Source: Pelosinus fermentans DSM 17108 | Lineage (GTDB): Bacteria; Bacillota; Negativicutes; DSM-13327 | NCBI RefSeq assembly: GCF_000271485.2 | Contig: NZ_AKVN02000001.1 | Location: 1,306,001 to 1,370,000 of the forward strand | Direction of reading: 5' to 3' | Length of the DNA stretch: 64,000 nt | Shown here: positions 25,269-55,129 of the stretch, in pieces | Numbering within the stretch: position 1 is the stretch's first letter | Layout: each line of letters begins with the position of its first letter | Translations under genes and position numbers: made by a program | The notes under the pieces: generated by a model | Seen by the model: only the letters and a program-made list of their open reading frames with translations | Database searches by the model: none | What the model was told of the DNA's origin: nothing

Positions 25269-25280
25269 TGAGTAGAAAAA

Positions 25281-25366
25281 TATATTGTGGCAAACTTATC
25301 AAAAGATAAGGACGCAAAGCCGTGGGTCTAAGGGAAGATATCCTATGATTGCCAGGTTGCCGATTC
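25281..25366 (+). ncRNA. Cyclic-di-GMP-I riboswitch (GEMM)
   Basis: The conserved GEMM elements appear in order: GGCAAAC (25289-25295), a GNRA-type loop with AAAAG, GGACGCAAAGCC (25310-25321), GGTCTAAGGG, then ATGATTGCCAGGTTGCCG. The tetraloop/receptor arrangement and the central GGACGCAAAGCC box are diagnostic. It lies between a promoter and an intrinsic terminator, ahead of a chemoreceptor gene, a common GEMM target. The terminator indicates control by premature termination; whether ligand turns expression on or off is not decided by inspection. Confidence 0.93.
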
Positions 25367-36516: not shown

Positions 36517-36593
36517 CGGGGCGTGGCTCAGCTTGGTAGAGCACCTGGCTTGGGACCAGGGGGTCGCAGGTTCGAATCCTGCCGCTCCGACCA
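36517..36593 (+). tRNA. tRNA-Pro (TGG)
   Basis: A 77-base cloverleaf. Acceptor CGGGGCG/CGCTCCG with one G-T pair, D arm GGCTCAGCTTGGTAGAGC, anticodon stem CCTGG with loop CTTGGGA (anticodon TGG), T arm GCAGGTTCGAATCCTGC, encoded CCA. Confidence 0.96.
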
Positions 36594-36616
36594 TTTTTAT
36601 TTTCAAATATGTGATT

Positions 36617-36691
36617 GCGGGAATAGCTCAGCGGTAGAGCATCGCCTTGCCAAGGCGAGGGTCGCGAGTTCGAATCTCGTTTCCCGCTCCA
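36617..36691 (+). tRNA. tRNA-Gly (GCC)
   Basis: A 75-base cloverleaf. Acceptor GCGGGAA/TTCCCGC, anticodon stem TCGCC with loop TTGCCAA (anticodon GCC), T arm GCGAGTTCGAATCTCGT, encoded CCA. Confidence 0.96.
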
Positions 36692-36696
36692 ATGAT

Positions 36697-36771
36697 GGCG
36701 ACATAGCCAAGCGGTAAGGCAGAGGTTTGCAAAACCTTTATTCCCTAGTTCAAATCTAGGTGTCGCCTCCA
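36697..36771 (+). tRNA. tRNA-Cys (GCA)
   Basis: A 75-base cloverleaf. Acceptor GGCGACA/TGTCGCC, anticodon loop TTGCAAA (anticodon GCA), T arm CTAGTTCAAATCTAG, encoded CCA. Confidence 0.95.
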
Positions 36772-36821
36772 AAAAAATAGTTTACTACACTGCCTTTAAC
36801 AGTTTGGCATATGACAAATAT

Positions 36822-36910
36822 GCCGGGGTGGCGGAACTGGCAGACGCAACGGACTTAAAATCCGTCGGAGAGAAATCTCCGTACCGGTTCGATTCCGGTC
36901 CTCGGCACCA
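36822..36910 (+). tRNA. tRNA-Leu (TAA)
   Basis: An 89-base class II tRNA. Acceptor GCCGGGG/CCTCGGC, anticodon stem ACGGA with loop CTTAAAA (anticodon TAA), long variable arm CGGAGAGAAATCTCCG, T arm CCGGTTCGATTCCGG, encoded CCA. Confidence 0.96.
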
Positions 36911-42022: not shown

Positions 42023-43921
42023 ATGTCTGCCGATATTCTGCTGGTTGCTCCTTATCCGAGTCTAAAGGAATTAGCTGAAAAAGTAAAAATCCATAATGAC
42101 ATTTCCTTTGATATCGTTGTAGGAAACCTGAATGAAAATTGGGATGAAGTGGATTCGCTTATTAGGCAAGGGGTAAAGGTAGTTTTGTCTCGAGGGGGAA
42201 CTGCACAATATTTGCGGGAACGATTAGATATTCCCGTTGTGGATATACCAGCAACATCTTTTGATATTTTAAGTGCAATTAGTCTTGTAAACGGCAAAGG
42301 CTTTAAAAAAATTGCGTTTATTACAACTAGAAATATTATTGTGAAAACGGAACATTTTAATGAGATAATGAATGTTTCTCTTTGTTTTGAGCCAGTTAAA
42401 AGTTCCAAGGAAATCCCTAGCAAAGTACAAGAGTTAATCCAAGAAGGATTTGAAGCAATTATTGGAGATGTCATTGCGACTCGACAGGCTGTTGCTCAGG
42501 GGATATGCGGTCAGTTATTAGAGTCGGGGTATGAGTCCTTGCTTTTAGGTCTTCAGGAAGCAAAGCAAGTTTTAGAAGCAGGTCAAAGAGAGAAAGCTCG
42601 CGTGAAACAAATGGAAGCTATTTTGAATATGATAACAGAGGCTGTCTTAACCATTGATAGACAGGGGCAGGTAACTTTATATAATACTGCAGCAGAGAAA
42701 GTATTTGGTTATTTAAAAGCGGATGTAATAGGGCATCAACTTCCAGAATGTATACCTGAAAGCAAGTTAATCGAAACTCTTCAACGTAGGAAAGAGGAAA
42801 AACACCTTTTAATTGAAATTAATCATAAAAAAATAATCAGTAATCGAATTCCGATAGTAATTGATGATGAAATTCATGGGGCAGTGGCTATATTTGAAGA
42901 AGTGAGCCACATACAAAATCTTGAGTTAGATATTCGTACTAAGCTAAATGAAAAGGGGCTGGTTGCCAAATATACATTTGCTCAGATTGAAAGTAATAGT
43001 TTACCAATTCAACAGGCGATAAAATTGGCAAGGCAATATGCTAATTCCGATGGAACGTTGCTAATCTATGGTGAAACAGGTACAGGAAAAGAGGTATTTG
43101 CTCAGAGTATTCATAATGAAAGCAAGCGTAGTGCAGGTCCTTTTGTCTCTGTTAACTGCGCTGCTTTAAATGAAGGTCTGCTGGAGAGTGAGCTTTTCGG
43201 ATATGTTGGGGGAGCATTTACTGGAGCAAACAAAGGGGGAAAACTCGGCCTTTTTGAAATGGCTCATGGAGGTACTGTTTTCTTAGACGAAATTGGTGAA
43301 ATATCTCTCAGCTTTCAAGCAAAATTATTACGAGTATTACAAGAAAAAGAGATAAGAAGAGTTGGTGGAAACCGCGTTATCCCTGTAAATATTCGTGTTA
43401 TTTGCGCTACAAATCGAAGTCTAAGAGATGAGGTAAGTAACCACAAGTTTCGTGAAGATTTATATTATCGTTTAACTGTATTAGAGATCAATCTTCCACC
43501 TTTAAGGGAACGAAAAGCGGATGTAGTGCCAATGGCCATTACTTTCTTAAAGCAAGAGTGTATAAAAGAAAATAGAAATCTATTCTGGTATGATGATCAC
43601 ATCTTTCAGAGTCTTCTCAAATATGAATGGTATGGGAATGCACGGGAATTACATAATTTTATCAATCGGCTGGTAATTTGCAGTGATGCAGGTGAGCTGA
43701 AAGAAAGTTTTATAGAAGAAATGATAGATAAAAAGCTGGGTGAGAAGTGTTCTGATGAGCATATCAACATTCAAATTAGCAAGAATTTGAAGCAGATGGA
43801 AGCAGAAATAATTTTAAGAATGCTGCAGCGTTATGAAGGTGACAAAGACCGACTATGTCGAGAATATGGCATTAGCAAAACAACATTATGGAGAAAGCTC
43901 AATTTCAAAAATGAAAGATGA
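42023..43921 (+). CDS. Sigma-54-dependent activator with PrpR-type N-terminal domain
   Basis: 632 residues. An N-terminal PrpR_N-like sensor (about 1-170: VLSRGGTAQYLRERLDIPVV, IAFITTRN) precedes a PAS domain (about 195-300: AEKVFGYLKADVIG) and the AAA+ domain. Walker A is GETGTGKEVFA, the sigma-54 contact loop GGAFTGANKGG, and Walker B GGTVFLDEIGE. The C-terminal Fis-type HTH is CREYGISKTTLWRKLNF. PrpR_N domains sense small organic acids. The target is probably the operon at 44151-48480, whose -24/-12 promoter lies 175 bases past its stop. Confidence 0.94.
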   Translation: MSADILLVAPYPSLKELAEKVKIHNDISFDIVVGNLNENWDEVDSLIRQGVKVVLSRGGTAQYLRERLDIPVVDIPATSFDILSAISLVNGKGFKKIAFITTRNIIVKTEHFNEIMNVSLCFEPVKSSKEIPSKVQELIQEGFEAIIGDVIATRQAVAQGICGQLLESGYESLLLGLQEAKQVLEAGQREKARVKQMEAILNMITEAVLTIDRQGQVTLYNTAAEKVFGYLKADVIGHQLPECIPESKLIETLQRRKEEKHLLIEINHKKIISNRIPIVIDDEIHGAVAIFEEVSHIQNLELDIRTKLNEKGLVAKYTFAQIESNSLPIQQAIKLARQYANSDGTLLIYGETGTGKEVFAQSIHNESKRSAGPFVSVNCAALNEGLLESELFGYVGGAFTGANKGGKLGLFEMAHGGTVFLDEIGEISLSFQAKLLRVLQEKEIRRVGGNRVIPVNIRVICATNRSLRDEVSNHKFREDLYYRLTVLEINLPPLRERKADVVPMAITFLKQECIKENRNLFWYDDHIFQSLLKYEWYGNARELHNFINRLVICSDAGELKESFIEEMIDKKLGEKCSDEHINIQISKNLKQMEAEIILRMLQRYEGDKDRLCREYGISKTTLWRKLNFKNER

Positions 43922-43943
43922 TATTTCATTTTTGAATTATATC

Positions 43944-43977
43944 AATAAAAGTCTATTACAGTAGGCTTTTATTTTTT
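43944..43977 (+). terminator. Terminator after the PrpR-type activator
   Basis: AATAAAAGTCTA and TAGGCTTTTATT form a 12-base stem with one T-G pair, followed by TTTTTT. Confidence 0.85.
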
Positions 43978-44095
43978 TGTATATCATACACTTTCAACGA
44001 TAAGTTTCTCGAAGGAGAACGTTGAAGAGGCTTTGTATCTTTGTGTTTCAAAACGGCTTTGTTTTCAAAAGATGCGGCAGCGTTATTTCGTAATA

Positions 44096-44112
44096 TTGGC
44101 ATAAGACTTGCA
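44096..44112 (+). promoter_or_regulatory. Sigma-54 promoter of the sugar-acid operon
   Basis: TTGGCATAAGACTTGCA matches the -24/-12 consensus (TGGCAC-N5-TTGCA) with GG and GC exactly 12 apart. A matching activator gene is directly upstream. Confidence 0.85.
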
Positions 44113-44150
44113 ATAAAATAATGATAAATAAGGATTATGGAGGTTATGAA

Positions 44151-44251
44151 ATGTTTAAAGGTATCTTCACTCCTGTTATTACTGTTTTGAATGAACATGT
44201 AAGCAGATGGATATTATTAAAGAACTTCTGGCAAAGATCGGTATAGCGTAA
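44151..44251 (+). pseudogene. Internally deleted remnant of a DapA/KDG-aldolase-family gene
   Basis: After a good ribosome site (GGAGG, 44139-44143), the ATG at 44151 opens MFKGIFTPVITVLNE, the hallmark start of the dihydrodipicolinate-synthase superfamily. The similarity then stops. Another frame at 44207-44251 reads MDIIKELLAKIGIA and a stop, as in the C-terminal end of the same family. About 800 bases of the middle appear lost, and the two ends are in different frames. It is the first position of the sigma-54 operon, so the intact gene was probably a sugar-acid dehydratase or aldolase. Confidence 0.65.
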
Positions 44252-44286
44252 TTACTGATTAATTCAGTTTTGAGAGGAAATGAAAA

Positions 44287-44583
44287 ATGGGAGAAACCAA
44301 AATTAACGCACTTATTATTAAAAGCACTGATAGTGTTGCTGTCGTTATTGAACCACTACAAGCGGGTACGATAGCTACGTACAAAGTAAAGGGGGAGGAG
44401 TTTAATATTCTCGTAAAGGAAAACATCCCGATTTATCATAAAATTGCTGTATTTGATATTGAAAAAGGGCAGGGATTATATAAATATGGTGAAAATATTG
44501 GATGTGCTTCACGTGCAATTCAAGCAGGTCAGCATGTTCATATACACAACTTAGAAAGTATGCGAGAAACGATAAAAAGATAG
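44287..44583 (+). CDS. UxaA-family dehydratase, small (SAF-domain) subunit
   Basis: 98 residues, a SAF domain like the N terminus of altronate or galactarate dehydratase: INALIIKSTDSVAVVIEPLQ, ENIPIYHKIAVFDIEKGQGL, then YKYGENIGCASRAIQAGQHV with HIHNLES. In enzymes such as E. coli UxaA this is fused to the catalytic part; here it is a separate gene, 17 bases before the large subunit. It should help the iron-dependent dehydration of a sugar acid. Confidence 0.88.
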   Translation: MGETKINALIIKSTDSVAVVIEPLQAGTIATYKVKGEEFNILVKENIPIYHKIAVFDIEKGQGLYKYGENIGCASRAIQAGQHVHIHNLESMRETIKR

Positions 44584-44600
44584 AAAGGAATTAAAGAAGA

Positions 44601-45761
44601 ATGAATTTCTGGGGATACAAAAGACCTGATGAAAAAGTAGGTGTTAGAAATCACGTGCTGATACTGCCGACTTGTGCTTGTTCCAGCGAGACTTGTAGAA
44701 TGGTTGCGATGCAGGTAAAAGGCACAATCAACATTAGCAATCAAAATGGCTGTGCTCAAGTTGAAGATGATTTAGCAATAACGAAACAAGTCTTAGCAGG
44801 GCTTGCTGCAAATCCCAATGTATATGGAACTGTACTTATTGGACTTGGATGCGAAAATGCCCAGGCAAAGGACATGGGAAAACTCATTCGTTCAAAAACG
44901 AATAAACCTCTTAAAACATTAATCATACAAGAAGAGGGAGGAACTATATCTACGATCAGAAAGGCAGTGGAATATGCACAGCAGATGGTGGAAGCTGCAT
45001 CAGCATTAAAAAAAGAACAGTTTCCTATTGCTGAGCTTATCGTGGGGACCAATTGTGGCGGATCGGATCCGACATCTGGTTTGGCAGCTAATCCTGTAGT
45101 GGGGAATCTTAGCGATCAATTGGTTGATTTAGGCTCCACTTCGATTTTATGTGAAACCACGGAATTTATTGGGGCGGAACATATTTTGGCAAAGCAAGCT
45201 GACACGCCTCAAATTGCTCAGCAGATTTATGATATTATTAAACGCTATGAAGATCATTTAGCCAATGTGGGGCAAAGCTTACGCAATGGGAATCCATCAC
45301 CTGGAAATAAAGAAGGTGGTATCACAACATTAGAAGAAAAATCATTAGGGTGCATTCATAAAGGGGGGCATAGACCTATTGTAGAGGTTTTGGACTACGC
45401 CCAATGCCCCACGAAAAAGGGCTTAGTGATTATGGATACCCCAGGGTACGATATTGCATCTGTAACGGGAGTTGCTGCGGGAGGAGCCCTGGTTATGGTC
45501 TTCACTACCGGCAGAGGGACGCCAACAGGAAATCCTATTATTCCAGTGATAAAAATCACAGCAAATCAATCCACATATGAAAAGATGAAAGATAATATGG
45601 ATTTTGATGCCAGCCCTGTTATTCGCAGTGAAAAATCAATTGAAGAAATGGGAGCAGAGCTTCTTAAAGAAGTCCTTGCTGTTGCTAATGGAAAGGTTGT
45701 TAAAGCAGAAGTATTAGGCTTTAATGAAATTGCTATTAGCAGGCTGTGCAACTATGTGTAA
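44601..45761 (+). CDS. UxaA-family dehydratase, large catalytic subunit
   Basis: 386 residues covering the D-galactarate dehydratase/altronate hydrolase C-terminal domain: GYKRPDEKVGVRNHVLILPT, GLGCENAQAK, VGTNCGGSDPTSGLAANPVV, and the C-terminal GGALVMVFTTGRGTPTGNPI. Conserved cysteines in PTCACSSETC and TNCGGSD may bind iron. It dehydrates altronate, galactarate or a related acid to a 2-keto-3-deoxy acid. The exact substrate is uncertain. It forms an operon with the SAF subunit, an MFS transporter and a LarA homologue. Confidence 0.88.
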   Translation: MNFWGYKRPDEKVGVRNHVLILPTCACSSETCRMVAMQVKGTINISNQNGCAQVEDDLAITKQVLAGLAANPNVYGTVLIGLGCENAQAKDMGKLIRSKTNKPLKTLIIQEEGGTISTIRKAVEYAQQMVEAASALKKEQFPIAELIVGTNCGGSDPTSGLAANPVVGNLSDQLVDLGSTSILCETTEFIGAEHILAKQADTPQIAQQIYDIIKRYEDHLANVGQSLRNGNPSPGNKEGGITTLEEKSLGCIHKGGHRPIVEVLDYAQCPTKKGLVIMDTPGYDIASVTGVAAGGALVMVFTTGRGTPTGNPIIPVIKITANQSTYEKMKDNMDFDASPVIRSEKSIEEMGAELLKEVLAVANGKVVKAEVLGFNEIAISRLCNYV

Positions 45762-45811
45762 GCATTAATAAAAGAAGACCTAGTCAGTAAATTTATTCAA
45801 TATACAGAATT

Positions 45812-45840
45812 CTAAAACAATTAGAGCGGCAATTGTTTAG
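45812..45840 (+). promoter_or_regulatory. Hairpin before the MFS gene
   Basis: CTAAAACAATT and AATTGTTTAG pair with one bulged A, 30 bases before the GTG start. It may balance expression within the operon. Confidence 0.35.
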
Positions 45841-45870
45841 GATAATGGTATAGAAAAAGGAGGAAGAAAA

Positions 45871-47166
45871 GTGAACAAACACGTTTCAGAAAAAAGAACA
45901 AATGTCCGGTGGGTGATAGCTATATTTATGTGGGCGGCAATTGCCATTAATTATTTAGATCGTACAGTTATGTCTGCAGCAGCACCCAGTATGATGAAAG
46001 ACTTAAATATTGGCCCAACTCAAATGGGAATTGTAATGTCTTCCTTTTTTTGGAGTTATGCCTTTTTTCAAATTCCTTCTGGTTGGCTGGCAGATCGTAT
46101 TGGACAGCGGGTATGTTTAGCTGGATCCGTTGTATGGTGGTCTTTGGCTACGGCTGTAACGGCTCTGGCTAAAAGTGCAAATGGCTTAATTGGTGCTCGT
46201 ATCTTTATGGGTATTGGTGAAGCTGGTGCGTATCCATGTAATGCTGGGGTAACAGCCAAGTGGTTTCCAGATAAAGAGCGTGGGCGAGTAACCGCTATAT
46301 TCGATAGCGGTACTAAATTTGGTACCGCTTTCACGATGCCGTTAGTAGCTTGGATGGTAGCGGTATATGGTTGGCAATTACCTTTTGTAGTATGCGGCGC
46401 TGTTGGATTAATTTGGGCGGTATTATGGATGGCCTATTATAAAGATCCTGAACAACACAAATATGTAAATCAAGCTGAGTTGAAATATATTCGTGACGGT
46501 CAAGCAAAAAAAGAAGGTATTGATAATATTCAACCAATGAAATGGTATGAACTTCTCAAATATCGTAACGTTCTTGCAATGTGTTTAGGTTTTTTCTTAT
46601 TCAATTATGCTATTTATTTCTTCATTACCTGGTTTCCTACCTACTTGGTTAAAGATCGGGGCATGCAGCTTATGACTATGGGATGGTTTGCCATGTTGCC
46701 ACCTTTATGCGGTATTATAGCCCAGTGGACTGGTGGTATCTTGACTGACTATATGTATACGAAGACAGGATCACTAACAAAAGCGCGGAAGATTAATATG
46801 GTTGGAGGCATGCTTCTGGCTACATCAATCGCTTTCGCTGGCTTTGCAGAATCCAATACAGTAGCAATAGTACTACTTTGTGTATCTTATGGAGGTCTTG
46901 CTTTTGCAGCTAGTGCGATTTGGTGTTTGCCAGGCGATGTTGCTCCTCGTAACATGACCTCAGTGTTGGGTGGTATTCAGAACGCAGCTTCCAATTGTGG
47001 TGGTATTCTCGGTCCCATTGTAACGGGATATATAATCGCAACAACAGGTTCTTTTGTTACGGCTCTTATCATTTCAGGTATTTGTTGTCTACTGGGTGCA
47101 CTTGTATATTTATTGATGCTCAAAGATATTAAACCAATTGATGTTCCTGGAGCGTCTATGAGATAG
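45871..47166 (+). CDS. MFS transporter, anion:cation symporter (hexuronate/sugar-acid) type
   Basis: 431 residues from a GTG start (AAGGAGG before it), with twelve predicted membrane helices. Family signatures: INYLDRTVMSAAAPSMMKDL in helix 1, SYAFFQIPSGWLADRIGQRV with the DRxGQR loop, GIGEAGAYPCNAGVTAKWFP. This is the ACS group with GudP, ExuT and GarP, which import glucarate, galactarate or hexuronates with protons. Its position between a UxaA-type dehydratase and a LarA homologue points to a sugar-acid substrate. Confidence 0.9.
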   Translation: MNKHVSEKRTNVRWVIAIFMWAAIAINYLDRTVMSAAAPSMMKDLNIGPTQMGIVMSSFFWSYAFFQIPSGWLADRIGQRVCLAGSVVWWSLATAVTALAKSANGLIGARIFMGIGEAGAYPCNAGVTAKWFPDKERGRVTAIFDSGTKFGTAFTMPLVAWMVAVYGWQLPFVVCGAVGLIWAVLWMAYYKDPEQHKYVNQAELKYIRDGQAKKEGIDNIQPMKWYELLKYRNVLAMCLGFFLFNYAIYFFITWFPTYLVKDRGMQLMTMGWFAMLPPLCGIIAQWTGGILTDYMYTKTGSLTKARKINMVGGMLLATSIAFAGFAESNTVAIVLLCVSYGGLAFAASAIWCLPGDVAPRNMTSVLGGIQNAASNCGGILGPIVTGYIIATTGSFVTALIISGICCLLGALVYLLMLKDIKPIDVPGASMR

Positions 47167-47202
47167 TTTTAAAAATACAATTCGGCGAAAGGAGAGAGTA
47201 AG

Positions 47203-48480
47203 TTGGATATTATCCAAGAGCTGCTACAAGAGATTCCTTTACCCCGTATGGTGAAAATACGTCAAGAATTTATTGCTGCTGAAGTGGTTGACGTGGCAGG
47301 TTCTTTGCAGCAGGAACTTGTGGCCTCTAATGTACTCGAGCAAATAAAACCTGGAATGAGCATAGCGATTGCTGTTGGCAGTCGTGGTGTTGCAGAAATT
47401 CCAACACTCACAAGAGTTGTTGTTGAAGAGATAAAAAAACATGGGGGCCGTCCTTTTTTAGTACCATCTATGGGAAGTCATGGTGGCGCTAATGCTGAAG
47501 GGCAAAAGGAAGTTCTAGAAAATCTGGGTATTACTGAAACCGTAGTAGGATGCCCAATTCGATCTTCGATGGAAGTTGTGGAAATTGGCTGCTTAGAAAA
47601 TGGCTTACCTGTATATATAGACAAATTTGCTTCTCAAGCAGATGGAATTGTCGTAATTAATCGTATAAAGCCCCATACTGCTTTTCGTGGAAATAATGAA
47701 AGCGGAATATGTAAAATGATTACGATAGGTCTTGGTAAACAAAAAGGCGCGGAATCTTGTCATGCCTATAGTTTTAAATACATGGCAGAAAATATTTTGG
47801 AAATGGCCCAAATTGCTTTATGTAGGATGCCCATTTTATTTGCAGTAGGTACTGTGGAAAATGCCTATGATAAAGTTGCTAAAATTGTCGTGGCTCCTAA
47901 AGATGAAATTATTGAAATCGATCGCCAGCTTTTAATTGAAGCTAAAGCCAATATGCCGCGAATTTATTTTGATCAAATTGACGTTCTTATTATTGATCGA
48001 ATCGGTAAAGATATATCTGGTGACGGTATGGACCCTAATATTACTGGACGCTATCCTACTCCTTATGCCAGTGGAGGTCCTAATGTCTCTAAAATGGTAG
48101 TATTGGATCTGACAGAACGCACTCATGGAAATGCAAATGGCATGGGGACGGCTGATTTTACTACTCAAAAATTAGTGGATAAAGTGAATTTTAAAATGAC
48201 ATATGCCAATGGACTGACTTCGACAGTGGTTGGTCCGACACATATGCCAATGGTGCTGGATACGGATCGTGATGCAATTCGCGCTGCAATAAAAACATGT
48301 AATGCTCTTGATTTATCAAAAGCTAGGGTTGTAAGAATTAAAGATACATTACATTTAGGAGAAATATGGATATCAGAAGAACTCATGGAGGAAGCTGAGA
48401 AGAATTCTTCTATTACTATTTTGAGTGAGCTGCAGGAAATGTCTTTTAATAGTGCTGGAAAGCTCAAGGATTTAGAGTGA
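47203..48480 (+). CDS. LarA-family nickel-pincer racemase/epimerase homologue
   Basis: 425 residues from a TTG start. Expected catalytic and cofactor positions are present: H93 in MGSHGGANAEGQ, H158 in NRIKPHTAFRG, K171 in GICKMITIGLGK and H187 in SCHAYS. The K171-H187 spacing of 16 equals K184-H200 of L. plantarum LarA, where the Lys carries the nickel-pincer nucleotide. Homologues racemise or epimerise 2-hydroxy acids, including sugar acids. In this operon an aldonate or aldarate C2-epimerase role is plausible (inference). The larBCE cofactor genes are not in the window. Confidence 0.82.
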   Translation: MDIIQELLQEIPLPRMVKIRQEFIAAEVVDVAGSLQQELVASNVLEQIKPGMSIAIAVGSRGVAEIPTLTRVVVEEIKKHGGRPFLVPSMGSHGGANAEGQKEVLENLGITETVVGCPIRSSMEVVEIGCLENGLPVYIDKFASQADGIVVINRIKPHTAFRGNNESGICKMITIGLGKQKGAESCHAYSFKYMAENILEMAQIALCRMPILFAVGTVENAYDKVAKIVVAPKDEIIEIDRQLLIEAKANMPRIYFDQIDVLIIDRIGKDISGDGMDPNITGRYPTPYASGGPNVSKMVVLDLTERTHGNANGMGTADFTTQKLVDKVNFKMTYANGLTSTVVGPTHMPMVLDTDRDAIRAAIKTCNALDLSKARVVRIKDTLHLGEIWISEELMEEAEKNSSITILSELQEMSFNSAGKLKDLE

Positions 48481-48550: not shown

Positions 48551-48569
48551 ATATAACCTGTATTTGACA

Positions 48570-48585
48570 TGGAGCCACTGTTGCT
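48570..48585 (+). promoter_or_regulatory. Sigma-54 promoter of the symporter-hutP operon
   Basis: TGGAGCCACTGTTGCT has GG (48571-48572) and GC (48583-48584) 12 apart and a TTGCT -12 box. The -24 box is less perfect than the two other sigma-54 sites in the window. The predicted start is near 48595. Confidence 0.65.
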
Positions 48586-48600
48586 TATATAATCATTATG

Positions 48601-48699
48601 TAGAATAGTAGTACTAAAAATCTGTAAGATGATGTTGTAGGATGGCAGAATGGTGAATGAAACGATGTGCACTCCTAGTGGGAGTGTTTTTTGTTTTTT
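48601..48699 (+). promoter_or_regulatory. Putative HutP-responsive attenuation leader
   Basis: The transcript would begin with clustered UAG triplets at 48601, 48606, 48609 and 48638 plus AAG/CAG at 48626 and 48646. Bacillus HutP binds clustered NAG triplets. An intrinsic terminator follows: CACTCC (48670-48675)/GGAGTG (48681-48686) with the tail TTTTTTGTTTTTT; its loop contains another UAG. A hutP-family gene is the second gene of the operon. That the leader is HutP-controlled is inference. Confidence 0.55.
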
Positions 48700-48722
48700 G
48701 CCGAATTTTGCATATGAATTGT

Positions 48723-48746
48723 AGGAAGGTAGGAAGGTAGGAAGGT
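48723..48746 (+). repeat. Three perfect tandem copies of an 8-base Shine-Dalgarno unit
   Basis: AGGAAGGT is repeated three times without a break, ending four bases before the ATG at 48751. Every unit contains an SD-like AGGAAGG. Copy number change would shift the SD layout and could tune translation. Confidence 0.9.
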
Positions 48747-48750
48747 AAAG

Positions 48751-50157
48751 ATGAATATTCAATTGGTTATCATTATTACTTATATTTTTGTTTTATTTGG
48801 TATTAGTATTTATGTAAAACGGAGGACTGAAAGTAGTACAGGTTTTCTGTTTGCTGGGCGAAAGCTTACTACTTTGCTGGTTGCGACAAATATCGCGGGT
48901 ACAGCGATTGGTGCTGCTTCGACAATTGGTGTTGCAGAAAATGCATATCAGTTTGGCATCGCTGCTGGATGGTATAATGTCGCTTGGGCTGCAGGAGCCG
49001 TATTGATGGCAATGGTAGCAGCTGAAAAATACAGAGAAATGGATTGTACTACGATTCCGGAATTATTTGAACGCTATTATGATAAAAAAGGGCGAGCAAT
49101 CAGTGTTTTGGGGATGATTACGATCCAACTGGTAATCACCTCATTACAGTACATTGCTGGCGGAGCGATTTTATCTTCTCTTCTGCCTGGTATATTTTCT
49201 TTTCAAGGTGGCATGATAACCAGTGCCATAGTCTTTATTGGAACGACTCTAATCGGTGGATTATGGTCGTCAGGCTTGTCGAATATTTTAAGTGTAACTT
49301 TGATTTATATTGGTGTGCTGATCAGTACAGTGACGACTGTTTCCAATCAAGGCGGTTTGAGCAGTATGGCTGCTGCTTTGCCTTCTAATATTGACTGGTT
49401 CAGCCCTCTTGGAGGCTTGGGGCTGGCTACTATTATTGGCTGGTTTGCCGTCATGATGACGCAGACGATTACTGCTCAGGGACCAGTACAGGTTGCTTGT
49501 TCAGCCGTTGATGGCAAGGCTGCGAAGAGAGGATTTTTATGGGGAGCTCTTTTGATGTTCCCAGTTGGCTTCTCCTGCGCTATTATGGGAATGGCTGCTA
49601 GAGTTGCCCATCCAGGTATGAACGCTACATTGGCTCTTCCCCAGATGATTATGGGGCTGGACCCTATCGTGTCTGGTTTGACACTGGCGGCACTTTGGGC
49701 AGCAGATGTTGCTACTGCTTGTCATATTTTGCTTGCAGCAGGAACATTATTTTCTCAGGATATTTACAAACGTTTTATCAATCCTAATGTGAGTGACAAG
49801 AAATATACGATTGTGAATCGTTATTCCATTCTAGGATTGGGGATTCTTACCTTATGGTTTGCATTTAATGCTGTAGGTATTGTTAAGACGATGCTGATTG
49901 GTCTAAGTCTGACTACCGCTTTTACATTGGTGTTTTTGTTTACCATGTTTGCACCGAGTCTTTGCCGTCGTAATTCAGCATTTTATACTACGCTGGCAGG
50001 TATGATCGCATTGTTTGCTTGGCAGATGTTCCCGGCAGTTCAAATTTTTGCACATCCCATTTATATGGAATGGCTGGTTTGTCTGATTACGTTCTTTATC
50101 GTAGCTGCAGTTGATAAAGAAAAAATTAAAGTTGTTGAAAAGAAGGCGGTTGCTTAA
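48751..50157 (+). CDS. Sodium:solute symporter (SSS family)
   Basis: 468 residues with about 13 membrane segments. It begins MNIQLVIIITYIFVLFGISI and has the family start STGFLFAGRKLTTLLVATNI with AGTAIGAASTIGVAENAYQF (sodium-site helix 1) and GGLWSSGLSN. Other SSS features are ALWAADVATACHILLAAGTL and FSQDIYKRF. Substrates range over sugars, amino acids, pantothenate and organic acids and cannot be told here. It is preceded by a sigma-54 promoter, a UAG-rich leader with a terminator, and a triple SD repeat, and is followed by a hutP-family gene whose GTG begins just after the stop. Confidence 0.9.
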   Translation: MNIQLVIIITYIFVLFGISIYVKRRTESSTGFLFAGRKLTTLLVATNIAGTAIGAASTIGVAENAYQFGIAAGWYNVAWAAGAVLMAMVAAEKYREMDCTTIPELFERYYDKKGRAISVLGMITIQLVITSLQYIAGGAILSSLLPGIFSFQGGMITSAIVFIGTTLIGGLWSSGLSNILSVTLIYIGVLISTVTTVSNQGGLSSMAAALPSNIDWFSPLGGLGLATIIGWFAVMMTQTITAQGPVQVACSAVDGKAAKRGFLWGALLMFPVGFSCAIMGMAARVAHPGMNATLALPQMIMGLDPIVSGLTLAALWAADVATACHILLAAGTLFSQDIYKRFINPNVSDKKYTIVNRYSILGLGILTLWFAFNAVGIVKTMLIGLSLTTAFTLVFLFTMFAPSLCRRNSAFYTTLAGMIALFAWQMFPAVQIFAHPIYMEWLVCLITFFIVAAVDKEKIKVVEKKAVA

Positions 50158-50158
50158 A

Positions 50159-50584
50159 GTGGAAATTACGAGTATTGATGTGGGAAGAGCGGCGATGGCT
50201 ATGGCAATTAGTGAAGATCGACAAGATGAACAAGAAATTCGTCAGCGCCTAAATGCTCGTGGTATCTCTTCTGTCGCTGTTGATTTTGGCGGCGAATATT
50301 TACTATCTGTCAAGAAAATTATTGAACGTGCAGTGGTAGCAGCCCAGCGCCAGAAGTTGGTGAGTGCCAATCATGTAGGTGAAGGTGCGGTGGCTGGTGC
50401 GACTCATGCGGCTCTGGAGCAAATTACGTCGAAAGCCGCTGGACTGAATGTGGGCGGAAAAATCGGAATTGCCCGTTATGGAGAACATATTTGCGTAGCA
50501 ATTTACTTTGGTGTAGGTGTATTGAATCTTAATGAAGTAGCGGTAGGATTGGCCCATCGTTCTTTGCCATTAGGAGAAGCATAA
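50159..50584 (+). CDS. HutP-family RNA-binding antiterminator
   Basis: 141 residues from GTG 50159, 1 base past the symporter stop (AGAAGG about 12 bases before). The chain matches the HutP family of Clostridia and Negativicutes: SVAVDFGGEYLLSVKKIIER, then EGAVAGATHAALEQI, GLNVGGKIGIARYGEHICVA and GVGLNLNEVA-like GVLNLNEVAVGLAHRSL. In Bacillus, HutP with histidine and Mg2+ binds UAG-rich mRNA and prevents termination in the hut operon. Here the target may be the leader of its own operon. The ligand is not known. Confidence 0.8.
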   Translation: MEITSIDVGRAAMAMAISEDRQDEQEIRQRLNARGISSVAVDFGGEYLLSVKKIIERAVVAAQRQKLVSANHVGEGAVAGATHAALEQITSKAAGLNVGGKIGIARYGEHICVAIYFGVGVLNLNEVAVGLAHRSLPLGEA

Positions 50585-50742: not shown

Positions 50743-50988
50743 ATGTGTGGTTGTGAAGAAAAAGATCCTGAATTAACGGATGAGATTCCAGTGTTGTTTA
50801 CGGACGATATCGAAATTCTCGAAGACCGTATAGCGGATGTTATTATTGCTATGGGGCTGCCGGAAGAGCAGACTGGGGCAGTGCTAAGACTAATGAGTGA
50901 CGCGTTAGAAGAACATCATTCCAATATTCTTGACACCTTTGAATACATTATAGCAGACGAAGATGATGAGGAAGAAATCAGCGAATAA
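50743..50988 (+). CDS. Small acidic protein of unknown function
   Basis: 81 residues, start ATG 50743 with AAAGGAG (50729-50735); a GTG at 50734 is inside that site. The N terminus MCGCEEKD has two cysteines separated by one residue. The middle is helical (IEILEDRIADVIIAMGLPEE) and the tail very acidic (ADEDDEEEISE). A strong terminator follows, supporting a real single-gene unit. I recognise no family. Confidence 0.7.
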   Translation: MCGCEEKDPELTDEIPVLFTDDIEILEDRIADVIIAMGLPEEQTGAVLRLMSDALEEHHSNILDTFEYIIADEDDEEEISE

Positions 50989-51016
50989 TCTCGTTGGTTA
51001 ACCGCATCGTTACGAA

Positions 51017-51059
51017 GACCCTCTATAACCACAATGTGGTTATAGAGGGTCTTTTTTTT
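51017..51059 (+). terminator. Strong terminator after the small acidic protein gene
   Basis: A 16-base perfect stem GACCCTCTATAACCAC/GTGGTTATAGAGGGTC with a 3-base loop and eight T. Confidence 0.95.
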
Positions 51060-51229: not shown

Positions 51230-52057
51230 ATGGATGTCAGACATAACGTTCATCCAGAAGATGCAAAACATTATACGACCCAGGAGCTGCGAAACCGTTT
51301 CTTGATTCAAGAGTTATTTGTGAAAAATGAAGTAAAGATGGTTTACAGTCACATTGACCGGATGATAACTGGTGGTGTGTATCCAGTTGAGCCTGTAGTG
51401 CTTCAAGCAGGAGCCAATATGGGGGTTGATTATTTCCTTGAACGACGGGAAATCGGAATCATAAACGTTGGCAATGCCGGTTCTGTCGTGGTTGATGGCG
51501 TGAAGTATGACCTTAATACTACTGATGGTTTATACATTGGTATGGGTTCCAAAGAAGTTAGCTTCTCTAGTGCAGATGCAAAGCAGCCAGCTAAATTTTA
51601 TTTTAACAGTGCCCCGGCTCATAAGACGTATCCAACTGTAAAAATTGAAAAAAGCAACATTACTCCAAATCATCTAGGTTCCATAAACCAGTCAAATGAA
51701 CGCAATATATATAAATATATTCATCCAGAAGGGGTTAAAAGCTGTCAGGTGGTAATGGGAATGACTGTTCTTGAACCAGGCAACATGTGGAATTCTATGC
51801 CTTGTCATACACACGATCGTCGTATGGAAGTATATTTTTATTTTAATCTTCCAGAAGATGCTATTGTATTTCATTATATGGGTGAGCCAACAGAGACTAG
51901 ACATGTAGTGATAAAAAATGAAGAGGCGATTCTTTCTCCAAGCTGGTCGATTCATTCTGGGGTAGGTACACACTGTTATACATTCATTTGGGGTATGGCA
52001 GGAGAAAATCAAACTTTTGATGATATGGATCATGTTGATATAAAAACATTGAAATGA
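51230..52057 (+). CDS. kduI: 5-dehydro-4-deoxy-D-glucuronate isomerase KduI
   Basis: 275 residues from ATG 51230 (AAAGGAGG before it; a GTG at 51209 lies upstream of that site). MDVRHNVHPEDAKHYTTQEL, RFLIQELFVKNEVKMVYSHI, then the cupin metal site MPCHTHDRRMEVYFYF are KduI hallmarks; E. coli KduI has 278 residues. It converts 5-keto-4-deoxyuronate from pectin or other polyuronides to 2,5-diketo-3-deoxygluconate for KduD. First gene of the kdu-kdg cluster. Confidence 0.96.
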   Translation: MDVRHNVHPEDAKHYTTQELRNRFLIQELFVKNEVKMVYSHIDRMITGGVYPVEPVVLQAGANMGVDYFLERREIGIINVGNAGSVVVDGVKYDLNTTDGLYIGMGSKEVSFSSADAKQPAKFYFNSAPAHKTYPTVKIEKSNITPNHLGSINQSNERNIYKYIHPEGVKSCQVVMGMTVLEPGNMWNSMPCHTHDRRMEVYFYFNLPEDAIVFHYMGEPTETRHVVIKNEEAILSPSWSIHSGVGTHCYTFIWGMAGENQTFDDMDHVDIKTLK

Positions 52058-52163
52058 TGCTAGTCATTTCAAGCGTTGGAAAGACTCAACATTTCCATTG
52101 TTTTAGGTGATGCAATGTATTACCGGTAAGATGACAAATAAAATATCAAATGGGGGTTTACAC

Positions 52164-52922
52164 ATGAGTACGATGTTTGATTTAACAGGAAAAGTGGCGA
52201 TTGTTACTGGTGCAGCCATGGGGCTTGGTCAAGGAATGGCTCTTGCTTTAGCCAATGCAGGAGCGGATATTGTAAGCGTAGGTTTAGGTGATAATACCCA
52301 GACCCAGGAATTAATTGAAGGTGCCGGCAGAAGGTTCTTAGCAGTGGATGCGAACTTAATGAGCATTGAGGTCATTGCTCCTGTAATTGAAAAAGTGGTC
52401 GCAGCTTTTGGAAAGATTGATATCCTGGTTAATTGTGCAGGCACTATTCGCCGTGCAGATGCCATTGACTTTACAGAAAAAGACTGGGATGATGTTATGG
52501 ATCTCAATCTTAAAACCGTATTTTTCTTCAGCCAAGCGGCAGCAAAACAATTTATTAAACAAGGACATGGCGGTAAAATTATTAATATTGCTTCCATGCT
52601 GTCTTTCCAGGGGGGGATCCGAGTGCCTTCCTATACTGGCAGTAAAAGTGGCGTAATGGGTGTTACTCGTCTGATGGCTAATGAATGGGCTAAGTACAAC
52701 ATTAATGCCAATGCAATCGCACCTGGCTATATGGCAACTGCCAACACTGCTCCGATTCGTGCTGATGAAAAACGTAATGCTGAAATCGTGAGCCGTATTC
52801 CGGCTGGACGCTGGGGATTGCCAGAAGATTTGGCTGGACCGGTAGTATTCTTGGCGGCGCCTGCTTCTGATTACGTGAATGGCTATACAGTGGCTGTTGA
52901 CGGTGGATGGTTAGCTCGTTAA
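52164..52922 (+). CDS. kduD: 2-deoxy-D-gluconate/2,5-diketo-3-deoxygluconate 3-dehydrogenase KduD
   Basis: 252 residues from ATG 52164 (GGGGG 9 bases before). It is a classical SDR: cofactor site VTGAAMGLGQGMA, NAG motif VNCAGTIRR, and the catalytic block INIASMLSFQG..YTGSK with S, Y and K in place. C-terminal NAIAPGYMATANTAPIRADE is typical of KduD. It reduces the KduI product with NADH to 2-keto-3-deoxygluconate (KDG). Confidence 0.94.
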   Translation: MSTMFDLTGKVAIVTGAAMGLGQGMALALANAGADIVSVGLGDNTQTQELIEGAGRRFLAVDANLMSIEVIAPVIEKVVAAFGKIDILVNCAGTIRRADAIDFTEKDWDDVMDLNLKTVFFFSQAAAKQFIKQGHGGKIINIASMLSFQGGIRVPSYTGSKSGVMGVTRLMANEWAKYNINANAIAPGYMATANTAPIRADEKRNAEIVSRIPAGRWGLPEDLAGPVVFLAAPASDYVNGYTVAVDGGWLAR

Positions 52923-53091
52923 TACAAAAAAGGATTTGATTAGGCAGCCATTAGTTAGTATCTATAGTTTTAACGCAGATAAGGTACTAGGCTGTCTGAT
53001 CTGATTGCCATTGAATTCCGAATTTTCGCATATAATTAAATATTTCGTGTAGGTACGCAATTATAAATATTATGAAAAAGGAAGGTATATT

Positions 53092-54060
53092 ATGAAAATC
53101 AAACAATCCATTGATAAAATTCCTGGTGGACTGATGTTGGTTCCCTTATTTATAGGAGCGATTTGTCATACCTTTTTCCCTGAATCGGGTAAATATTTTG
53201 GTTCCTTTACCAATGGGTTAATCACGGGCACGGTACCCATTCTGGCCGTATGGTTTTTCTGCATGGGTGCTGGTATTGATATTCGAGCAACAGGCACAGT
53301 ACTGCGGAAATCCGGTACCTTGGTAATAACTAAAATTGCCGTTGCCTGGGTTGTTGCCGTTATAGCTGCTAGAATATTGCCAGGGGATGGGATACAAACA
53401 GGTTTTTTTGCAGGATTATCTACCCTTGCTTTAATTGCTGCAATGGATATGACTAATGGCGGTTTGTATGCCTCGATTATGCAGCAATATGGCAGCAAAG
53501 AAGAAGCCGGGGCCTTTGTATTAATGTCCATTGAATCAGGTCCTTTGGTGACAATGCTCATTATGGGGACTTCTGGTTTAGCAACATTTGAGCCTCGTTT
53601 GTTCGTTGGAGCTGTTCTTCCTTTCATAATTGGTTTTGCCTTAGGAAATCTGGATAGTGAACTGCGAGAATACTTCGGTAAAGCATCCAATGTTATGATT
53701 CCATTTTTTGCTTTTGCGTTAGGTAACACCATCGATCTGAATGTAATTGGAAAGACTGGCTTTTTAGGGATTATGCTGGGGATTTCTGTGATTATAGTTA
53801 CAGGTATTCCATTAATGCTGGCGGATAAATTTATTGGCGGCGGAAATGGCACTGCAGGACTGGCAGCATCGAGTACGGCTGGAGCAGCCGTTACCAATCC
53901 TCTCATAATCGGTGAGATGCTTCCAGAGTTTAAAGCTGTTGCACAAGCTGCTACGGCGTTAGTTGCTACATCTGTAATTGTGACCTCCATACTGGTACCT
54001 GTATTGACTGCTTGGTGGAGTAACTATATGAAGGGTAAAGAACAATCTGTAGAAGCATAA
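53092..54060 (+). CDS. kdgT: 2-keto-3-deoxygluconate permease KdgT
   Basis: 322 residues, about ten membrane helices. It opens [20 protein letters not shown] with GAICHTFFP, as in KdgT (E. coli 327 residues). Other family blocks are [39 protein letters not shown] and [19 protein letters not shown]. It takes up KDG with protons. A GGAAGG site precedes the ATG. The 169-base gap before it holds no further gene. Confidence 0.94.
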
Positions 54061-54071
54061 ATTGTGACGAC

Positions 54072-54102
54072 GAGAAGAGGCATACTTTGTACGCCTCTTC
54101 TC
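54072..54102 (+). terminator. Hairpin after kdgT
   Basis: GAGAAGAGGC and GCCTCTTCTC form a 10-base perfect stem with an 11-base loop; no T run. It may separate kdgT and kdgK messages. Confidence 0.6.
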
Positions 54103-54193
54103 ATTAGATACTGTTGAAAGAGGGGACGTTTCTTAAACAAATACAACAGGCTAATCAATCATGAGGATTTAGTCTGAAAGCAGGAGGTAGAAC

Positions 54194-55129
54194 ATGAGCA
54201 AGATTCTTACAATTGGTGAGCCGATGGCACTTTTTGTAGCAGACCAGGAAGGTGATTTAAAAGATGTAGAGCATTTTTCCCGTTTTGTTGCTGGGGCAGA
54301 AGTTAACTTTTCAATTGGTATGGTGCGCCTGAAGCATGCAGTCACTTATATTAGCAAACTAGGCGACGATCCCTTTGGTAAACAGATAGAAGAATTCTTA
54401 CAGAAAAATGGAATTGATACTTCTTATATAACCCACGATGCCCAATATTTTACCGGCATGCAGTGGAAGCAAAAGGTTACCAGCGGTGACCCTCACGTTT
54501 TTTCTCTGCGTAGAAATTCAGCGGCTTCACATATGGATGTAAGTACCATTGCAAAACTAAATTGGGATGGATTTGATCATATTCATTTAACGGGTATTCC
54601 GCCAGCCTTATCCGCCGGATGCCGGCAACTGGTGTATGAGCTAATTAAACAAGCCAGGGGAAAGGGCGTATCCATATCCTACGATCCAAACTTACGCCCT
54701 GGTCTTTGGGCAGATCAGAAAGAAATGATCCAGGTAGTTAACGATTTGGCATGCTTGGCAGATATTGTGATTCCAGGCATTTCAGAAGGCAAATTGCTTA
54801 CTGGAAAAGAAGGCGTACAGGAAATTGCAAATGCCTATCATGCTGCTGGTGTGAAGACTGTTGTGATCAAACTAGGTGCAGAAGGCGCTTATACCAGTTC
54901 GGAGGGGCAGCAATTTTATACACCTGGTTTTCCCGTAACAAAAGTGGTAGACACGGTGGGGGCAGGGGATGGCTTTGCTGTTGGTTTAGTAAGCGGGATT
55001 TTAGAAGGCTTGTCCTTGCAGGAAGCTGTAAGACGTGGTACTGCAATTGGAGCTTTGGCAGTGATGTCTCCCGGTGATAACGATGGGCTGCCTGATCGGG
55101 ACAGTCTTGCTGCTTTCATCCGAGTATAA
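54194..55129 (+). CDS. kdgK: 2-keto-3-deoxygluconate kinase KdgK (PfkB family)
   Basis: 311 residues. PfkB signatures are GGAEVNFS-like GAEVNFSIGMVRL near residue 35 and DTVGAGDGFAVGLVSGILEG near residue 255, the latter holding the catalytic Asp. It starts ILTIGEPMALFVADQEGDLK as in bacterial KDG kinases. It makes KDPG from KDG; the KDPG aldolase is not in the window. AGCAGGAGG precedes the ATG. Confidence 0.94.
   Translation: MSKILTIGEPMALFVADQEGDLKDVEHFSRFVAGAEVNFSIGMVRLKHAVTYISKLGDDPFGKQIEEFLQKNGIDTSYITHDAQYFTGMQWKQKVTSGDPHVFSLRRNSAASHMDVSTIAKLNWDGFDHIHLTGIPPALSAGCRQLVYELIKQARGKGVSISYDPNLRPGLWADQKEMIQVVNDLACLADIVIPGISEGKLLTGKEGVQEIANAYHAAGVKTVVIKLGAEGAYTSSEGQQFYTPGFPVTKVVDTVGAGDGFAVGLVSGILEGLSLQEAVRRGTAIGALAVMSPGDNDGLPDRDSLAAFIRV

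Follow-up and report, generated by a model that had tools for sequence, protein, structure and literature searches.

The leader of an SSS (sodium:solute symporter)-hutP operon in Pelosinus fermentans DSM 17108 is probably controlled by a HutP-family, TRAP-like RNA regulator of aromatic amino acid uptake and synthesis that autoregulates its own operon, a reading to which sequence comparison leads us to assign a probability of about two in three. The comparative evidence comprises a UAG motif, its positions and spacing, a bias toward the sense strand, the identity of the target genes, loss of the motif together with hutP, and the HutP fold of the encoded protein. From this evidence, we infer how the protein would assemble, bind RNA, respond to a ligand, and act on its targets. 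No prior description of such a system was found in the open-access literature searched, where one paper, a B. subtilis transcriptome study, mentioned HutP as well as chorismate.

The operon lies on the forward strand of the window, which is the whole 64,000-nucleotide stretch of DNA that was analyzed. The SSS gene (48751 to 50157; PF00474) is followed one base later by a HutP-family gene with a GTG start (50159 to 50584; PF09021), which encodes the proposed UAG-binding regulator. Upstream of the SSS gene, cluster A (GUAGAAUAGUAG; 48600 to 48611) sits at the 5' end of the transcript and contains UAG triplets at 48601, 48606, and 48609, with distances of 5 and 3 that sum to 8 and are kept in relatives. 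Cluster B (GUAGGAUGGCAGAAUGG; 48637 to 48653) consists of UAG and CAG triplets with a period of 8. It is followed by an intrinsic terminator (CACUCC..GGAGUG with a two-part T tract; 48669 to 48700), the stem of which occupies 48669 to 48687. The initial annotation had recorded the adjoining gene pair, the terminator with its T tract, and four UAG triplets (the three in cluster A and one at 48638), and all of these were confirmed, the UAG triplets at exactly the stated positions. It had missed cluster C (48721 to 48745), in which three copies of TAGGAAGG place UAG triplets at 48722, 48730, and 48738, again with a period of 8, in the Shine-Dalgarno region of the SSS gene. Cluster C is the strongest element of the leader; it is purine rich and includes the likely Shine-Dalgarno sequence. 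In the 5-Mb Pelosinus genome, it is the sole place where the motif GTAGNANNGTAGGANNG occurs (two overlapping matches), and each Pelosinus genome has the motif in one place, which is the SSS leader every time. An Rfam search of the leader returned no match at the gathering threshold, including to the T-box (RF00230). Elsewhere in the window are a c-di-GMP-I riboswitch (25279 to 25364; 76.7 bits) and four tRNA genes (36517 to 36907).

The operon is preceded by a sigma-70 promoter on the forward strand (48564 to 48593) that matches the consensus at 12 of 12 positions, with TTGACA at 48564 to 48569, an 18-nt spacer, and TATAAT at 48588 to 48593. A -24/-12 site for sigma-54 (TGG-N8-TTGC; 48570 to 48585) had been proposed initially, and with it sigma-54 control, but it falls inside this perfect sigma-70 promoter. 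Among 45 nonredundant SSS leaders from many families of the class, 35 have a sigma-70-like promoter, whereas the sigma-54 element is found in just two, both from Pelosinus. We therefore rejected sigma-54 control. In approximately 15 leaders, the first UAG starts 7 nt past the -10 box.

To characterize the arrangement of UAG triplets in the same 45 leaders, we compared them with dinucleotide shuffles, a control that ignores relatedness. Pairs of UAG triplets separated by 8 nt were found 87 times, compared to 6.7 ± 2.7 in the shuffled leaders (z = 30). A distance of 16 was likewise enriched, and distances of 5 and 3, which sum to 8, recur as in cluster A. There was no enrichment at a distance of 7, the spacing of the NAG triplets bound by Bacillus HutP. 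The clusters of relatives occupy the 5' end and the Shine-Dalgarno sequence (UAGAAAGGUAGGAUGG), and often the middle of the leader as well; nearly all leaders have the one at the ribosome-binding site. Terminators were found in 20 of the 45 leaders, compared to 1.1 ± 0.9 in the shuffles and one on the minus strand, which indicates that the terminator is real but not universal; the other 25 leaders lack it and yet retain their UAG triplets. The initial annotation had proposed comparing related leaders for both features. Of these, the UAG spacing proved strongly conserved, while the terminator was shared by fewer than half of the leaders. Where present, the terminator forms by default in most of the leaders that were folded.

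The distribution of the motif is linked to that of hutP. The HutP family was detected above the cutoff in 127 of 300 genomes of the class, in many cases directly behind the SSS gene, and this pair is conserved across many families. The three-unit pattern YAGNAWDGYAGNAWDGYAGNA was found in 42 of 119 genomes with HutP and 17 of 181 genomes without it (Fisher's exact test, P = 8 × 10^-8), counts that include many matches from related genomes and do not represent independent events. The reversed pattern, used as a control, had no association with HutP (P = 1). Action in trans is suggested by SSS orthologs that are far from hutP and nevertheless retain the clusters (L228, L229, G037, and G022; weaker in G046). 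The UAG-N5-UAG cluster was absent from four SSS orthologs in genomes that lack hutP (G026, G012, G042, and G049). The genome from which the window comes has a single gene of the hutP family. Motif matches inside coding regions were treated as chance.

Outside SSS leaders, matches in HutP-encoding genomes point to aromatic amino acid metabolism. They were found upstream of genes for DAHP synthase (aroF; seven loci), shikimate dehydrogenase (aroE; three), and prephenate dehydrogenase (tyrA; three), and also of genes for 3-dehydroquinate dehydratase (aroD), shikimate kinase (aroK), chorismate mutase (aroH), tryptophanase (tnaA), a TrpX binding protein, and a PheP/AroP-like permease, with most target names checked by NCBIfam. 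In genomes without HutP, none of the approximately 11 loci examined had an aromatic gene at the motif match. Many of these other targets carry their clusters at the Shine-Dalgarno sequence, and the tryptophanase leader has the same design as the SSS leaders, including a terminator. Two DAHP synthase leaders (L290 and L302) contain a T-box and a UAG cluster together; by our own reading, the specifier in both T-boxes is UAC (Tyr). Six further matches place the UAG cluster at the start of genes for GlcD-like FAD oxidases in Acidaminococcus- or Phascolarctobacterium-type genomes, and about a dozen have no recognized target. Repeats resembling UAGGAUGGUAGGAUGG were also observed in the leaders of an MFS transporter and a LarAH10 racemase in two genomes of one genus. 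In Pelosinus itself, no second clear target was found: its DAHP synthase leaders lack the motif, and we set aside aroD as a candidate, the clusters there being weak and variable. In Clostridia, the same hutP clade adjoins aroH (six cases verified) or the DAHP synthase gene, and among 31 clostridial genomes with this hutP, only two had the period-8 motif, in one case before tyrA.

The SSS protein is itself predicted to be an importer of aromatic amino acids. A paralog with approximately 50% identity, encoded in the same genomes (G000:C1:1580880-1582262 and its orthologs), lies behind a T-box with a UUC (Phe) specifier (GAAGUUC) and a second element, GGGTGGTACC, in 13 of 13 genomes, which speaks for an aromatic substrate in this subfamily of SSS transporters. 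On the upstream side of the operon (42023 to 48480) are a PrpR-like sigma-54 activator, a split altronate/galactarate dehydratase, an MFS transporter, and a nickel-pincer isomerase (group 22). Directly behind hutP is an 81-amino-acid open reading frame (50743 to 50988) that is conserved in Pelosinus and matches no family in Pfam or NCBIfam; a strong terminator comes next (51014 to 51054). Beyond it are sugar-acid genes (51233 to 55129) encoding KduI-like, SDR, and KdgT-like proteins and a kinase, with names assigned partly by eye.

The assignment of the regulator to the HutP family is firm at the level of sequence (PF09021, 150.4 bits against a cutoff of 25; E = 3.9 × 10^-44), and an AlphaFold2 model of the protein (pLDDT = 94.6) has the HutP fold. 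In a fold search with this model, the best matches were all HutP of Bacillus or Geobacillus (Z = 15.6 to 17.2; 2.1 to 2.4 Å over 125 to 130 residues), including 4ok9 (Z = 17.2) and 1wmq (Z = 16.1), while the next unrelated chains scored 7.6 or lower. Sequence searches of solved structures with a profile of the clade found no HutP. The protein is not TRAP, since its sole Pfam match and its modeled fold are both HutP. Its ligand site appears to have changed. His73, His77, and His138 of Bacillus HutP form what we take to be the Mg2+/L-histidine site; in a profile alignment made with hhalign, the first two are opposite Gly76 and Gly80, which are invariant in 41 relatives. Glu126 was placed opposite His138 by eye on a shared VGL stretch, beyond the end of the hhalign alignment. 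The HutP sequences used for comparison were those of B. subtilis and Geobacillus. The canonical triad is replaced by Gly/Gly/Glu, and the targets and neighbors of this hutP are SSS genes, aromatic amino acid genes, and a few others, not hut genes. Together, loss of the candidate His/Mg site and the aromatic target genes disfavor histidine as the ligand. A second HutP subfamily that retains the histidine triad is found elsewhere in some of these genomes; four such genes lie beside apparent malonate decarboxylase or sodium-pump decarboxylase subunits (assigned by eye).

We propose that the UAG clusters ahead of the transporter operon are very probably read by the HutP homolog that this operon encodes, a part of the initial proposal that the strongly conserved UAG spacing supports. 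The HutP-like protein, product of the second gene, would assemble as HutP does and would bind UAG (NAG) triplets 8 nt apart in clusters A, B, and C. Elsewhere in the class, it would act in trans, binding similar clusters at the starts of genes for aromatic amino acid biosynthesis, uptake, and tryptophanase. The activating ligand would most likely be an aromatic amino acid, and the active protein, like TRAP, would repress by covering the ribosome-binding site. In the many leaders that bear a terminator, read-through would be affected too. Ligand-activated translational repression best fits the location of UAG clusters over the Shine-Dalgarno sequences of biosynthesis and uptake genes, although some targets (tryptophanase and the GlcD-like oxidases) fit simple feedback repression poorly.

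In the initial annotation, the HutP homolog, together with histidine or the transported solute, was instead proposed to bind the UAG triplets and stop termination, switching its own transporter on. The modeled HutP fold is consistent with this, as is the presence of UAG clusters before a terminator, both in this leader and in the other leaders that have one. When histidine and Mg2+ are present, Bacillus HutP occupies two NAG clusters, each of three triplets, and prevents termination (PMC7430163), and the shared leader design extends to tryptophanase, a catabolic gene. However, absence of the terminator from 25 of the 45 leaders, combined with a nearly universal cluster at the ribosome-binding site, argues for control of translation start rather than antitermination, and the clusters of other targets are often at the Shine-Dalgarno sequence. 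Histidine is a doubtful ligand for the additional reason that its uptake in Negativicutes has been attributed, in one paper, to HisXYZ under HisR (PMC9413887). We also considered a TRAP-like antiterminator competing with the terminator and rejected it: folding three leaders with their clusters kept single stranded neither weakened the terminator nor revealed a competing antiterminator. Antitermination survives as one option for leaders that have a terminator, but we regard it as unlikely to be the main mode of control.

Less probable still, and by a clear step, is that the repeats serve a transcription factor as a DNA operator and are not an RNA site. Three leaders of GntR-type regulator and mannonate dehydratase-like (uxuA) operons in genomes without HutP carry a similar repeat, UAGUAUGGUAGUAUGG, that may be such an operator; we treated these matches as an unrelated operator. 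Near target genes, though, the motif was on the sense strand in 45 cases and on the antisense strand in none, which argues for an RNA site and led us to reject the operator. Furthermore, the clusters come after the start site and overlap the Shine-Dalgarno sequence, and the presence of the motif tracks a gene of an RNA-binding family. That the triplets are mere AG-rich Shine-Dalgarno sequence and stop codons with no regulatory meaning, as the purine-rich makeup of cluster C might suggest, is very improbable given their strict period of 8, their near uniqueness in the genome, the presence of another cluster at the 5' end, and the lack of the motif in SSS orthologs of genomes without hutP.

The proposed HutP-family regulator combines features of known systems. 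It shares with HutP of B. subtilis and Geobacillus the PF09021 domain, the fold, several NAG clusters per leader, and, in many leaders, a terminator. It differs from Bacillus HutP in sequence (approximately 20 to 25% identity), in the Gly76, Gly80, and Glu126 residues at the histidine positions, in a spacing of 8 nt instead of 7, in having clusters over the Shine-Dalgarno sequence, and in its aromatic amino acid and transporter targets. The likeness to TRAP lies in NAG repeats, in targets for aromatic biosynthesis and uptake, and in sites over translation starts, as at trpG, trpP, and ycbK, where TRAP blocks ribosome binding directly (PMC11255114, PMC4347634). Unlike TRAP, which binds 9 to 11 repeats with short spacers, the predicted regulator is built on the HutP fold and would bind a small number of repeats at 8 nt, and no competing antiterminator was seen in the three leaders folded. 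T-box leaders control the same aromatic genes, and both elements occur in some DAHP synthase leaders, but T-boxes are sensors of uncharged tRNA, and the SSS-hutP leader in the window has none.

On a broader interpretation, to which we give roughly even odds, a HutP branch that is widespread in Negativicutes and Clostridia would be an aromatic amino acid-sensing analog of TRAP built on another fold. Its hexamer may bridge the clusters at the 5' end and the Shine-Dalgarno sequence, joining control of termination and translation for the uptake and synthesis of Phe, Tyr, and Trp. The findings offer a likely function for a gene annotated merely as "HutP," predict substrates for a subfamily of SSS transporters, and supply a defined motif in RNA whose targets, listed genome-wide, are open to immediate testing. 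If the interpretation is correct, Negativicutes, including the gut genera Phascolarctobacterium and Acidaminococcus, would carry a circuit resembling that of TRAP but built on an unrelated fold, and HutP would rank as the founding member of a broad family of amino acid-sensing RNA regulators with a changed ligand, rather than a narrow histidine switch of Bacillus.
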